Source: an uncultured beta proteobacterium (GTDB taxonomy: Bacteria > Pseudomonadota > Gammaproteobacteria > Burkholderiales > SG8-39). Taken from it: a DNA stretch of 13,070 nt. A program made the position numbers and the translations under genes. Of this stretch, positions 7,423-12,053 are shown piece after piece. Every line of letters begins with the position of its first letter. The stretch's first letter is position 1. The DNA is taken from positions 80,689 through 93,758 of the forward strand of contig CADEDU010000018.1 in the NCBI GenBank assembly GCA_902826155.1, read 5' to 3'. Under the pieces are notes generated by a model. That model had not been told where the DNA came from, did no database searches, and saw only the letters and a list, made by a program, of their open reading frames with translations.

Positions 7423-7454
7423 GCTCGGCGCGTCAGTGATCCAGCGCGCCGAGC
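7423..7454. terminator. Inverted repeat between convergent genes, possible bidirectional terminator
   Basis: The arms GCTCGGCGCG (7423-7432) and CGCGCCGAGC (7445-7454) are perfect reverse complements with a 12-nt spacer. The repeat lies between the cupin stop and the final codons of the minus-strand LLM gene, overlapping that gene's stop. A GC-rich hairpin here suits transcription ending from both sides. There is no T-run on either side, so intrinsic termination is not certain. Confidence 0.4.
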
Positions 7455-8416
7455 ACCCGCAACAGATCCGCGTTGGTGTCCACGCCGCCGATGATGACCT
7501 CATCGGCGCCGAGCGCGCCGTACTGGGCATAACGCGCCTTGACCTGTTCCGCCGTGCCTGCGGCGGCATGCGCGCGCACCACCGTATCGGTCACCAGCCG
7601 TTCGACGCCGCGCCAGTCCTCCGCCGCGTACGCATCCCACAACGCTTTCTGATCGAGGCCACTGCCGCCCAGCGCGACGTTGCGCGCGTGATGCGGTCCG
7701 CGCAGGATGAAACCCATCGTGCGGCGGATGCTGTCGATGGCCGCGCGCTCGTCGTCCGCCGCCCGGGTGTACACGATTACGTGGCGTTTGCAGCGGCCGG
7801 GCCTGGTGCGCCGCGCCTCACCCTTGGCAACTGTACTGAACGTTTCCGCTACGAACGGCGCGCAGGTAGCCGCGGAGATGATCACCCCGTCGGCCTGCTC
7901 ACCCGCCAGCTCCAGCATCTGCGGCCCTGAGGCCGCCAGCACAATCGGCACGCGCGGCGCGGGGTTCGGGAGACGCCGCCCCTGCATCCGATAGATCTCT
8001 CCGGCGTGGTCGAGGGTCTTGCCGGCAAGCAGATCACGGCAGATCGCGATGGTCTCGCGCAGCGTGGCGAGTGGTTTCGTTGCGCTCAGGCCTGCTGCCG
8101 CAAGATCGCCCGGTGCGCCTGCACCCAGGCACAGCACCACGCGACCGGGATACAACTCGTCGAGCGCGGCGGCGGCCATGGCGATGAACGCCGGATTGGT
8201 GAGATACGGGCTCATCGCCATCAGTGCGACCTTGATGCGCTGCGTCGCCGCGAGCGCGGCGTTCGCCATCGTGATCGGATCGCGCAGGAACAGATGGCTC
8301 GCCATCCACAGCGTTGCGGCGCCGCTCGCGTCGGCGGCGCGCGCCTGCGCGATCACATCCGACAGCGGCGCGCGGCCGTCAAAGGCCACACCCAGATCAG
8401 CGCGCATCAAAGCCAT
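7433..8416 (-). CDS. LLM-class flavin-dependent oxidoreductase (second, divergent copy)
   Basis: The product is a 327-residue TIM-barrel member of the luciferase-like monooxygenase superfamily, close in pattern to the methylenetetrahydromethanopterin-reductase-like branch. Supporting segments are ARAADASGAATLWMASHLF at 25-43, ALMAMSPYLTNPAFIAMAAAALDELYPGR ending at 92, LGAGAPGDL at 97-105, VPIVLAASGPQMLELAGEQADGVI at 156-179 and the C-terminal G-ADEVIIGG. It differs widely from the other LLM protein in the window, so it is not a recent duplicate. The ATG at 8416 has AAGGA 5 nt upstream; the frame runs further but that extension has no family pattern. The gene overlaps the 3' end of the threonine-synthase-like gene by 20 bp, so the two are co-translated in one operon. 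Cofactor (FMN or F420) and substrate are unknown. Confidence 0.85.
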   Translation of the reverse strand: MALMRADLGVAFDGRAPLSDVIAQARAADASGAATLWMASHLFLRDPITMANAALAATQRIKVALMAMSPYLTNPAFIAMAAAALDELYPGRVVLCLGAGAPGDLAAAGLSATKPLATLRETIAICRDLLAGKTLDHAGEIYRMQGRRLPNPAPRVPIVLAASGPQMLELAGEQADGVIISAATCAPFVAETFSTVAKGEARRTRPGRCKRHVIVYTRAADDERAAIDSIRRTMGFILRGPHHARNVALGGSGLDQKALWDAYAAEDWRGVERLVTDTVVRAHAAAGTAEQVKARYAQYGALGADEVIIGGVDTNADLLRVLGALDH

Positions 8417-9632
8417 AGTGGTCCTTGAGGCAGCGCGTGAGCGCCGCGAGATCACCATCGACGAACGGGGTGCTGTCGGCCGCACCGGCGCGCACATCCT
8501 TCAGCCCGCCGGCAGTGGCCAGCGCCACCACCACGTCGCCGGGCGCGATGGTCCCTGCGGCGCGCAGCTTGTCGATCACCGGAAACGTGGCGGCTGCGGA
8601 CAGCTCGAGAAACACACCCTCCTGCTGCGCCACGCGCGCGCGCCAGGTCAGCATGTCTTCGTCATCGACGACCATAGACATGCCATGCGACGCTCGTAGC
8701 GCCGCAACCGCCTGGTACGTGCCTTGCGGCGCGGCGATCGAGCCGGCCACGCTGTTCATCGCGCGCGGTGCCGGCATCTCCGCGCCGAGTGCCATCGCCT
8801 CGGTGAGCGACCCGGACACTTCCGCTGCCACAAGTCGCGGCACACGATCGGTCCAGCCCAACCGCACCATGTCTTCGAAGCCCTTCCACATGCCGTAGAG
8901 CGCATCGCCGTAGCACACCGGCAGCACGCACCACTCGGGCACGCGCCAGTCGAGCGCTTCGGCGATCTCGTAGGCGATCGTCTTGTAGCCCTCGATGCCG
9001 AACGGATTGCTGCCCACCGCCGGTCCGTAATACACCGACGCGGGATACCACCCGTACGCTTCGACTGCCGCAGAGAGCAGACGCCAGCGATCCGCGCTGG
9101 TCGGCACCGTCACCAGCTTCGCGCCGTAGCTCTGCATCTGCGCCACCATCGGACCGCTCGCACCGCGATAGGTGACGATCACGCAGGGCAGCCCTGCCCG
9201 GCTCGCATAAGCGGCAATCGCCGCGCCCGCGTTCCCCGACGAGCTGGAGCAGATCACGCGCGCGCCGAGTTGCTGCGCCATGGTGACTGCGCTGCTCGCC
9301 AGCCGGTCCTTGAACGACCAGGTCGGATTGCGCGTCTCGTCCTTGAGCAGCAACCGGCCGAGCTGCAGGCGCTCGAGCGAAACCAGTGGTGTGCCGCCTT
9401 CGCCCAGCGTGACTGCCTGCGCTGCGGGAGCCGGCAGCAACGCGCCGTAGCGCCACATCGATCGCGCGCCGGCGGGCAGCTGATCGCGGTGCAGCGTGCG
9501 CCGCGCCGCATAGTCGACCGTCAGATTGGCCGCCACGTCTTCGGCGGCACAGTGCGGACAGCCGCGCGCGTACGCGTGCAAAGCGAAGGTCCGCGCGCAG
9601 CGAATGCAAAGTAATCCGGATGCGTTGCTCAC
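8397..9632 (-). CDS. Threonine-synthase-like PLP-dependent enzyme with N-terminal zinc ribbon
   Basis: The product is a 411-residue fold-type II PLP enzyme. An N-terminal zinc ribbon is formed by C9-x2-C12 and C25-x2-C28. GEGGTPLV lies at 77-84, the PLP lysine is K108 in NPTWSFKDR at 102-110 (threonine synthases usually read NPTGSFKDRG), the phosphate loop precursor SSSSGNAG is at 129-136, and ATAGGLKD is at 372-379. Threonine synthase makes threonine from O-phosphohomoserine, but the substituted W105 and L111 and the catabolic neighbours suggest a related beta-elimination or replacement reaction on another amino acid. The start is a GTG at 9632: an in-frame stop lies at 9657-9659, no ATG lies between, and GAGAG precedes the GTG. 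It follows kynureninase by 57 bp and overlaps the LLM gene, which makes a three-gene operon. The family is sure; the substrate is not. Confidence 0.86.
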   Translation of the reverse strand: MSNASGLLCIRCARTFALHAYARGCPHCAAEDVAANLTVDYAARRTLHRDQLPAGARSMWRYGALLPAPAAQAVTLGEGGTPLVSLERLQLGRLLLKDETRNPTWSFKDRLASSAVTMAQQLGARVICSSSSGNAGAAIAAYASRAGLPCVIVTYRGASGPMVAQMQSYGAKLVTVPTSADRWRLLSAAVEAYGWYPASVYYGPAVGSNPFGIEGYKTIAYEIAEALDWRVPEWCVLPVCYGDALYGMWKGFEDMVRLGWTDRVPRLVAAEVSGSLTEAMALGAEMPAPRAMNSVAGSIAAPQGTYQAVAALRASHGMSMVVDDEDMLTWRARVAQQEGVFLELSAAATFPVIDKLRAAGTIAPGDVVVALATAGGLKDVRAGAADSTPFVDGDLAALTRCLKDHYGFDAR

Positions 9633-9689
9633 GATGTCACTCTCGGCGGCTGGATATCAGAAGCACTTGCGCAACCCTCGGCGAAAGAC

Positions 9690-11003
9690 TCATGTCACGG
9701 TCGCACGATGCGAAAAGCGCGGCTCGCGCCACTGCTCGCCCGCCAGCACGTCGCGCAGGTGCTCGACGGCATCCCACACATCGACGTACCGGGTGTAGAG
9801 CGGCGCGAAACCGAAGCGCAGCAGGTCGCGCGAATCGGCATCGTCGGGCGCGCGTTCCTGCACAGCGTGAAGGGCGCCGGTGAGCCCGGCGCGGAAATCG
9901 CCAATCACACCACGCTCGATCAGCGCCTGCATCACCGCGTAACCGTTCTCGTCATGGCTGAAGCTGACCTGGCTGCCGCGTCGCTCGGCCTCGCGCGGGG
10001 AACGCAGCTGCAACCCGAATGTGTTGCAACGCGCTTCCACCAGATCGATGAACAGACTGGTCAGCGCGACCGACTTTTGTCGCAGCGCCGCCATGCCACC
10101 GAGCGGTCCGGCCGCATGCAATGTCTTGACTCCCTCTTCCAGAGCGGCCAGCGCCAGGATCGCGGGTGTGCCGCACAGATAGCGTCCGATGCCGGCTGCG
10201 GGCCGGTAGCTGTCGCTGAAGGCGAACGGTGTTGCATGACCGAGCCAGCCGCTCAACGGCTGCTCGAAGCGATCGGCGTAGCGTGGATGCACCCAGACGA
10301 ACGCAGGCGCGCCGGGTCCGCCGTTCAGATATTTGTAGCCGCAACCGATCGCGAAGTCGGCATCGGCCCCGCGCACGTCAACGGGCAGCGCCCCGGCCGA
10401 ATGCGCCAGATCCCAGATCGCCAGCGCGCCGACGCGATGCGCGGCGGCCGTGAGCGTCGCCATGTCGTGCAGCGCACCGCTGCGATAGTTGACTTGCGTC
10501 AGCAGCAGCACGCTCACCGATTCATCGAGCGCATCGAGCAGCTGCTCCGCGCTGACCAGCCGCAGCGCGCAATCGAACTGCCGCGCGAGGCTCTGCGCGA
10601 TGTAGAGATCGGTAGGGAAGTTGCTGCGCTCGGACACGATCACCCGCTTGCCTGGAGTGCGGGCGCGCTGCAGGCTCAACGCAGCGCTCAGCACCTTGTA
10701 CAGATTTGCCGAGGTCGAGTCGGCTGCGACGACTTCGTTCGCACCGGCACCGATCAATGGTGCGATCAGATCACCGACGCGTCGCGGCGCATCGATCCAG
10801 CCTGCGCTGTTCCAGCTGCGGATCAGGCCGTGCCCCCACTCCTCGTCGATGACCGCACGCAGCCGGCCCGCAACGCTGCGCGGCTTGGCGCCAAGCGAAT
10901 TACCGTCGAGGTAGATCGCGCCCTCGGGTAACTCGAACTGCTCACGTAACGACGCCAGCGCATCGGCGGCATCGCGTGCGGCACAGTCGGCCCGGGTGAA
11001 CAT
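9690..11003 (-). CDS. kynU: Kynureninase
   Basis: The product has 437 residues, close to the family's usual 410-430. Kynureninase is a fold-type I PLP enzyme that cleaves kynurenine (or 3-hydroxykynurenine) to anthranilate (or 3-hydroxyanthranilate) and alanine in tryptophan breakdown. Family signatures are IYLDGNSLGAKP at 30-41, NFPTDLY at 128-134, QVNYRSGALHDM at 170-181, WDLAHSAGALPVDV at 197-210, the PLP lysine K224 in GCGYKYLNGGPG at 220-231, and RFGFAPLYTRY at 396-406. I chose the ATG at 11003; the frame is open to 11096, but those extra 31 residues precede the conserved start and lack pattern. No strong Shine-Dalgarno is visible. It leads a minus-strand operon with the threonine-synthase-like and LLM genes. 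No tryptophan dioxygenase or formamidase gene is in the window. Confidence 0.93.
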   Translation of the reverse strand: MFTRADCAARDAADALASLREQFELPEGAIYLDGNSLGAKPRSVAGRLRAVIDEEWGHGLIRSWNSAGWIDAPRRVGDLIAPLIGAGANEVVAADSTSANLYKVLSAALSLQRARTPGKRVIVSERSNFPTDLYIAQSLARQFDCALRLVSAEQLLDALDESVSVLLLTQVNYRSGALHDMATLTAAAHRVGALAIWDLAHSAGALPVDVRGADADFAIGCGYKYLNGGPGAPAFVWVHPRYADRFEQPLSGWLGHATPFAFSDSYRPAAGIGRYLCGTPAILALAALEEGVKTLHAAGPLGGMAALRQKSVALTSLFIDLVEARCNTFGLQLRSPREAERRGSQVSFSHDENGYAVMQALIERGVIGDFRAGLTGALHAVQERAPDDADSRDLLRFGFAPLYTRYVDVWDAVEHLRDVLAGEQWREPRFSHRATVT

Positions 11004-11049
11004 GCAGTCGCTGGAAGAGAGGTGGCGTGGTGCGGAACGCGTCGCGAAA

Positions 11050-11058
11050 ACTGTAGCA
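11050..11058 (-). promoter_or_regulatory. Possible extended -10 element for the kynU operon
   Basis: Read on the minus strand, TGCTACAGT fits an extended -10 (TG-n-TACAGT) about 47 bp upstream of the kynureninase ATG. I see no good -35 hexamer at 16-18 bp, so this is a weak candidate. Confidence 0.25.
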
Positions 11059-11119
11059 CAGCGTTCGTGCCGCTCCGACTCCTTCGGGCGGTGCACGATG
11101 GCAAGAAAGTGCTTGGCGC

Positions 11120-11125: not shown

Positions 11126-11199
11126 GCCTCGTCGTGTTTTTCCATCCGGCATTACGCTCGATTCATCCATCCACTCGCATCACACCAGGGAGCGCATCC

Positions 11200-11490
11200 A
11201 TGCCCAAAGCCTTCTGGGTCGGCACCTACCGATCGATCTCCAACGCCGACAAGCTCGCCGCGTACGCCAAGCTTGCCGGCCCCGCGATCCAGGGGGGCGG
11301 CGGACGGTTCCTGGCGCGCGGCAATCCGGCGCAGGTCTACGAAGCAGGCATCCAGCAACGCGTGGTCGTGATCGAGTTCGATAGCGTTGCGCAAGCCACC
11401 GCCGCGCACGACAGTCCTGGCTATCAGGCAGCGCTCAAGGAGCTCGGTGACGGCGCAGTGCGCGATATCCGCATCGTCGAAGGGCTGTAG
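11200..11490 (+). CDS. DUF1330 family protein
   Basis: The product has 96 residues and the pattern of DUF1330, a small dimeric alpha/beta-barrel (ferredoxin-like) family: a first strand KAFWVGTYRSI, DKLAAYAKLAGPAIQGGGGRFLARG at about 18-42, VVVIEFDSVAQATAAHDSPGYQAALK at 55-80, and the final strand DIRIVEGL. No catalytic role is established for the family. The start is fixed by AGGGAG at 11187-11192, 7 nt before the ATG; the frame runs upstream to 10996, but that part overlaps the kynU start and has no family pattern. It is followed 14 bp later by the AhpD-like selenoprotein candidate, so the two are very likely one transcript. Confidence 0.85.
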   Translation: MPKAFWVGTYRSISNADKLAAYAKLAGPAIQGGGGRFLARGNPAQVYEAGIQQRVVVIEFDSVAQATAAHDSPGYQAALKELGDGAVRDIRIVEGL

Positions 11491-11504: not shown

Positions 11505-12053
11505 ATGCCCCGAGTCCGCGAGATCACCGATGCAGGCGGCAACGCCGATCTGCAGAACATCTTCGCCAAGGAGCGCGAGCTCTACGGCGATCTGCTCAAC
11601 CCATCGAAAGTCATGGCGCACTGCCCGCCTATCCTGCGGGCAGCGAAGCTGTTGAGCGCCTCGATCGACCAGTCGGGCACGTTGCCCAAATCATTGCCGT
11701 CGCTCGTCTACTTCCGGGTGGCGAGCATCAACGGCTGTCCGTTCTGAATCGACATCAACGCCATCCGTGTGATGGAAAGCGAAGGCGGGGCGGACAAGCT
11801 CGCCGAATCAGCCCAATGGCGCCAGAGCACGCGCTTCAGCCCGGCCGAGCGCGTCGCGCTGGAATACGCCGAGCGCGTCACCTACACCGACCAGAAGGTC
11901 GATGACGAGCTGATCGCGCGGCTGAAGCAGCACTTCGACGATGCGCAGCTCGTCGAGCTCACCGCCGCGATCGCGCTGGAAAATTTCCGCAGCAAGTTCA
12001 ACCCTTCGCTCGGCGTGGAGTCGCAGGGGTTCTGCATGGTCGGCAAGAAGTAG
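11505..12053 (+). CDS. Candidate selenoprotein: carboxymuconolactone decarboxylase/AhpD-like, in-frame TGA at 11745-11747 read as selenocysteine
   Basis: The frame from ATG 11505 to TAG 12053 encodes 182 residues if the single in-frame TGA (11745-11747) is read through. The TGA is codon 81, in N-G-C78-P-F-[TGA]-I-D-I-N. AhpD/CMD-like proteins carry a redox CxxC here (NGCPFCIDI-type), so the TGA stands exactly in place of the second cysteine, giving CxxU. The frame continues with typical family sequence: FSPAERVALEYAERVTYT, an acidic helix DDAQLVELTAAIALENF, then RSKFNPSLGVESQGFC. Codon use and GC content do not change across the TGA. A SECIS-like hairpin follows at 11761-11775. AhpD-like members are peroxide-linked thiol reductants; here the role is presumably thiol/selenol redox chemistry. 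Only a weak GGATAA precedes the ATG, 14 bp after the DUF1330 stop, suggesting coupled translation. The alternative is a pseudogene or sequencing error hitting that one codon. Ordinary gene callers would report two short fragments (11505-11747 and from ATG 11769). Confidence 0.78.
11761..11775 (+). promoter_or_regulatory. SECIS-like hairpin downstream of the in-frame TGA
   Basis: CCATC (11761-11765) pairs perfectly with GATGG (11771-11775) around the 5-nt loop CGTGT. It begins 13 nt after the TGA, and the loop begins 18 nt after it. Bacterial SECIS elements lie inside the coding region just after the UGA, with a short stem and a G among the first two loop bases; in E. coli fdhF the recognised mini-hairpin starts 11 nt after the UGA and has a GU in its loop. 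Here G is the second loop base, followed by U. The bulged U of the E. coli element is not evident. Recruitment of SelB is inferred. Confidence 0.55.

Follow-up and report, generated by a model that had tools for sequence, protein, structure and literature searches.

The DNA analyzed here, a stretch of 13,070 nt (the window), comes from an uncultured beta proteobacterium (contig CADEDU010000018.1). At 11505-12053 it carries a frame that very probably codes for an AhpD/CMD-superfamily selenoprotein, in which the UGA at codon 81 is read as selenocysteine (Sec). The coordinates of this gene, of positions within it, and of the gene just upstream are given in Table 1. The residues around codon 81 read GCPF-TGA-IDIN, and the TGA column corresponds to the second Cys of the CxxC motif both in a Cys-containing homologue (database protein P0002; CSFC) and in PA0269 (CAYC).

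Table 1. Positions of the selenoprotein gene, its features, and the adjacent upstream gene in the window
Feature	Coordinates	Strand	Remarks
AhpD/CMD-fold selenoprotein gene (predicted)	11505..12053	+	ATG at 11505, TAG at 12051-12053; 182 codons with a single in-frame stop; 182 residues, Sec at residue 81
CxxU redox motif C78-P-F-U81	11736..11747	+	C78 in 80/80 aligned rows
In-frame TGA, read as selenocysteine (U81)	11745..11747	+	TGA at the same codon in 80/80 related loci
Asn85, position of His in CxxCxxxH relatives	11757..11759	+	Asn in 79/80 rows, one gap; PA0269 has His
SECIS-like hairpin	11761..11775	+	Stem CCATC (11761-11765)/GATGG (11771-11775), loop CGTGT (11766-11770), 18 nt after the TGA
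Cys177 in C-terminal QGFC tail	12033..12035	+	Cys in 80/80 rows; beyond the end of the PA0269 match
DUF1330 protein	11200..11490	+	PF07045 in 11191-11490; start inferred from the translation; ends 14 nt upstream of the selenoprotein gene

Conservation of the in-frame TGA

A scan of genome contigs yielded 193 confirmed relatives, and the best 80 of these (58 to 76% identity) were retained. All 80 loci carry TGA opposite residue 81 and have no further stop in the matched frame, and therefore the codon is not there by chance. Protein counts based on 80 rows refer to the window plus 79 loci, with L079 left out, since its match begins only at residue 26. This exclusion applies to the tree (from which P0006 was also omitted), the near-invariant columns, and the residue counts. 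Two further alignments were used: A2, with 59 distinct sequences remaining after 22 of 81 were removed as duplicates of another sequence, and A3, with 34 of the 80 loci.

The window frame contains no frameshift and no stop other than the TGA. Relative to the nearest locus (L001, 76% identical), nonsynonymous and synonymous divergence (dN and dS) are 0.230 and 0.588 upstream of the TGA and 0.148 and 0.580 downstream, and the GC content at third codon positions (GC3) is 0.85 before the TGA and 0.88 after it. Judged from these values, both halves of the frame appear constrained. Furthermore, the other rows share 60 columns with an identity of 97% or more, and the window protein deviates from none of them, which together with dN below dS on each side argues against decay.

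The original prediction, made from the letters of the window alone, had described one TGA at the second Cys of CxxC in an otherwise intact 182-residue frame without decay in the flanking codons. Its coordinates and motif are correct, and the dN, dS, and GC3 values agree with it on decay. It had also proposed to align the readthrough translation with AhpD/CMD homologues, which indeed places Cys opposite the TGA in P0002 and PA0269, and had held that another codon or frame decay in close relatives would speak against it; every retained relative keeps the TGA and an otherwise open frame. A conserved in-frame UGA at a redox Cys site and a homologue with Cys at that site, by which bacterial selenoproteins are recognized, are both present here.

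Database proteins reflect the interrupted frame. Among the best 120 of 698 protein matches, 114 are 100 to 108 amino acids long and cover 50 to 55% of the query, and all 11 of these that were aligned correspond to the half downstream of the TGA. The truncated fragments that the original prediction expected from standard annotation are thus what databases hold. Only six of the 120 listed matches span the Sec site, and P0002 alone has Cys there. The other five (P0003, P0004, P0005, P0006, and P0078), which are full-length or nearly so, have Gly, Ser, Trp, Leu, and Trp, respectively. Each of these residues could be one base from TGA or fit another code, and they may represent read errors or gene calls made with code 25 or 4.

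These few proteins with Trp, Gly, Ser, or Leu are what would favor a reassignment of TGA to an ordinary amino acid, as in code 4 or 25. We give this explanation practically no credence: among the 13 other genes in the window, 8 terminate with TGA, which shows that the code is not reassigned, and internal stops are absent from all 13; in the 80 relatives, the matched frame contains no TGA but this one. It is also highly improbable that the locus comprises two separate genes, with the second starting directly after the TGA. The second half is stored as a database protein of its own, starting MDIN, but just 22 of 81 sequences have ATG directly behind the TGA, and the window has ATC there. Moreover, two genes would split the CxxC motif, and the predicted fold covers both halves.

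A SECIS-like hairpin and the Sec machinery of relatives

Most relatives have a stem-loop at 12 to 30 nt past the TGA, resembling a selenocysteine insertion sequence (SECIS). The hairpin occurs in two registers, which are offset by a single base and have a loop of 5 and 4 nt, respectively; 8 of the 59 distinct sequences use the second. In one register or the other, 55 of these 59 have a stem of 5 bp or more, compared with 7.8% of synonymous shuffles; the four sequences lacking it are L035, L056, L073, and L077. Covariation in the same alignment scores 0.341 versus 0.122 (standard deviation 0.016) in shuffles, and cells with two-sided changes number 53 against 10.6 expected; for both measures, none of 500 shuffles was as high. 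When the partner strand was slid, all measures dropped except the number of pairs with two-sided change (6 at +1 and 5 at +3). Codons 82 to 92 are also more uniform than others, with an excess homozygosity of 0.36 (7 codons) versus 0.11 (104 codons). RNAalifold returned no consensus structure for the 59 sequences, perhaps because of the two registers, and pairs were therefore counted on the named structure instead. Scans of the window with Rfam models at gathering scores and for tRNAs found nothing.

Published limits for the bacterial SECIS (bSECIS) include a loop of 3 to 9 nt, a stem of 4 to 16 bp, a G at loop position 1 or 2, a spacing of 16 to 37 nt, and a minimum free energy (MFE) of -7.5 kcal/mol or lower (PMC13188914). 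The window hairpin lies within this geometry, with a 5-nt loop that has G second, a 5-bp stem, and a spacing of 18 nt, and the best hairpin is at exactly 18 nt in 76 of 81 sequences. The MFE limit is reached by 60 of the 81 sequences but by only 11.5% of 1972 control positions.

Of the genes that a selenoprotein-making bacterium should carry (selA, selB, selC for tRNA-Sec, and selD), selB and selC were sought in the relatives' genomes. Among the 39 genomes behind L001-L040, selB exceeded the cut-off in 34 (controls, 2 of 14) and tRNA-Sec exceeded the gathering score in 37 (controls, 5 of 14). Because other tRNAs reach about 54 bits, tRNA-Sec was counted in this first set only at 60 bits or more, a threshold passed by 35 of the 39. 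Among the 40 genomes behind L041-L080, tRNA-Sec was found at E up to 1e-10 in 37, compared with 2 of 14 controls, and a clear tRNA-Sec is present overall in 72 of 79 relatives' genomes. In the Reyranella family, 72 of 75 genomes have selB, so its presence or absence hardly varies within that family. The genome of the nearest relative (G001) has a tRNA-Sec of 60.1 bits and a selB-like fragment that scores 199.5 bits over 128 of 581 positions, under the cut-off. It is the only one of nine genomes from its order with the gene, and also the only one with tRNA-Sec. In Alphaproteobacteria, selC has been described within selB (PMC8124441).

Several observations weigh against reading the window gene as a selenoprotein gene. 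Its own hairpin has only 5 bp and -4.0 kcal/mol alone, or -5.3 when folded with its neighbors; longer stretches of the window reach -7.0 to -12.1, but as other folds, and the energy of the stretch is no better than that of synonymous shuffles (z -0.05). Of all the evidence for the window gene as a selenoprotein gene, this hairpin is the weakest part. Among the relatives, pairs with two-sided change number 5 versus 3.1 in shuffles, with 20 of 500 as high, which makes this a weak measure. The evidence for Sec machinery comes from genomes other than that of the window organism, and even there 3 of 40 in the second set lack tRNA-Sec at E 1e-10, and 3 of 39 in the first (those of L011, L035, and L037) have neither selB over the cut-off nor a clear tRNA-Sec; the latter three are metagenome bins and may be incomplete. 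In the tree, the window branch is long (0.32 versus 0.064 for L001). Finally, the redox function is putative.

The long branch, the weak hairpin, and the origin of the machinery evidence in other genomes would also suit a nonsense mutation, a pseudogene, or a sequencing error in an ordinary CxxC gene. This is very unlikely, given the same TGA in 80 of 80 relatives, the unchanged near-invariant columns, dN below dS on each side, and a frame without frameshift or other stop. The selenoprotein reading of the original prediction is instead strongly supported by the conserved TGA, the Cys homologue, the covarying hairpin, and the occurrence of selB and tRNA-Sec in most relatives' genomes.

Distribution and gene neighborhood

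The gene is widespread in the family of Reyranella massiliensis, where 68 of 75 genomes have a match. Exactly one TGA is present in 69 of the 72 matching places, and the other three (40 to 42% identical) have no stop. The gene is seldom found outside this family: one of nine genomes has it in the order of G001, namely G001 itself, and one of 300 sampled genomes in the order of a betaproteobacterial bin (G018), again that bin itself. A phylum sample gave 2 matches in 398 genomes, both known already, and a class sample queried with P0002 gave 6 in 385, five of them known already; each match has one TGA. Two scans of viral contigs revealed no relatives, and plasmid records held none with at least 60% identity, the ten listed being 38 to 40% identical.

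In one bin (G020) the selenoprotein gene is present twice, on separate contigs (L020 and L025). A second, different CMD-like gene lies about 3 kb off in L056 (4359-4781, minus strand), with TGA at the second CxxC position (GCNY-TGA-GNQR); it scores 69.1 bits against the NCBIfam model NF053654, below the cut-off.

The selenoprotein gene and the DUF1330 gene upstream are possibly co-transcribed. At E 1e-8, none of the 80 related loci contains a match to the latter. Comparison of all 13 other window genes with these loci revealed no shared neighborhood: seven have no match, and six match one to three loci each, mostly at 24 to 35% identity and 2 to 7 kb away. The Reyranella copies repeatedly have as neighbors genes for, among others, a TctC receptor, a protein of the phosphoglycerate dehydrogenase type, and a flavin adenine dinucleotide (FAD) protein. 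Pfam matched only three of the ten recurring open reading frames scanned there; the other seven may be overlapping frames. Neither neighborhood gave a lead on function. Elsewhere in the window (7433-11096, minus strand), genes for a luciferase-like monooxygenase, a pyridoxal phosphate (PLP)-dependent enzyme, and a kynureninase-like protein are grouped; taken at their longest, the frames of the first two share about 100 bases.

Family assignment and possible chemistry

The window protein passes the gathering score of the CMD domain (PF02627; 40.8 bits versus 23), and its predicted all-helical AhpD fold runs through both halves. Five NCBIfam models match it, but none of their cut-offs is passed. 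The best match is NF053654, 'YciW-related (seleno)protein', over residues 1-175 (128.7 bits versus 310), followed by the peroxidase-related enzyme TIGR01926 (41.1 versus 81.8), the AhpD core domain TIGR00778 (21.1 versus 27.8), and two lower-scoring models. Seven relatives tested score 125.7 to 150.7 bits against NF053654. Ten further proteins, seven of them from loci of the window's branch, pass neither NF053654 nor TIGR01926; L064 passes the general domain model TIGR00778 (33.2 bits).

AhpD in the strict sense has a CxxCxxxH catalytic site, and the window protein instead has Asn85 at the His position. PA0269 (PDB 2ijc, 2o4d, and 7xw1) shares the fold and the CxxC position with the window protein but has Cys in place of Sec and His in place of Asn85; its match starts near residue 41 and ends at 171-172, before the QGFC tail. 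The debrominase Bmp8 (PDB 6ohi and 6ohj) shares the fold over residues 1-180 and the CxxC site, yet it is a Cys enzyme of 20 to 21% identity, crystallized with bromopyrrole according to the entry titles. Mycobacterium tuberculosis AhpD (PDB 1knc and 1gu9) is 11 to 13% identical, and its catalytic His, which we take to be H137, corresponds to Asn85 by motif spacing only.

AhpD-like selenoproteins with CxxU are already described, and the window gene adds to this known type. As the original prediction stated, they are known from marine surveys and have been in print since 2005, when 27 sequences (COG2128) were reported from the Sargasso Sea (PMC1088965); others came from genomes in 2006 (COG2128; PMC1794560) and from the Global Ocean Sampling (GOS) survey (299 and 70 sequences; PMC2398784). 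They also appear in reviews (PMC9312934 and PMC13188914), and a CMD-like match is named in Geobacter (PMC1242214). The novelty is therefore below what was first implied. As described in these sources, the survey proteins (COG2128/YciW) resemble that of the window in having Sec second in CxxC and a predicted bacterial SECIS. The surveys are mostly marine, whereas the window's relatives, where records tell, are mostly from groundwater, soil, and fresh water; one (L078) is a marine bryozoan symbiont. Our search of the open literature found no paper on the window's AhpD-like branch or on Reyranella selenoproteins, and one review that names YciW; PMC12013277 and PMC11820528 contributed nothing to the question.

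We propose that SelB and tRNA-Sec would act at the hairpin just downstream of codon 81, where the ribosome would insert Sec. The product would be an all-helical redox enzyme of the thiol/selenol type, with catalysis carried out by the CxxU pair. The second CxxC position is the peroxidatic one. Sec81 may attack peroxide or another oxidized substrate, after which Cys78 would close a selenenyl-sulfide that a cellular thiol system could reduce. Both Sec insertion in the window organism and the substrate are what we infer. Within the selenoprotein reading, the enzyme could also resemble the CMD-fold debrominase Bmp8 and work not as a peroxidase but as a reductive dehalogenase or a disulfide reductase, which is rather unlikely.

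The branch may also represent a distinct form of the AhpD fold, with Sec close to fixation and a chemistry remodeled around it, a tentative idea that we do not favor. Here, His would have given way to Asn because a selenol needs less help to ionize, and a mobile QGxC tail would carry electrons to or from CxxU, a role comparable to that of the C-terminal tail in some thioredoxin reductases. The QGFC tail is a low-confidence part of the structure model. Since the Cys form P0002 has both the Asn and the tail Cys, these residues may predate Sec or be independent of it. P0002 nests inside the Sec branch of the tree, a possible Sec-to-Cys reversal that we do not claim because support is weak (93/22) and the branch is long.

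The window gene clearly illustrates how standard annotation splits such a protein in two. Although the majority of the genomes sampled from one bacterial family contain the gene, the window protein falls below every NCBIfam cut-off, and a profile built from sequences of this branch would correct many database entries. Moreover, a branch with Sec in almost all sampled members plus one Cys form would allow the benefit of Sec over Cys to be measured directly.
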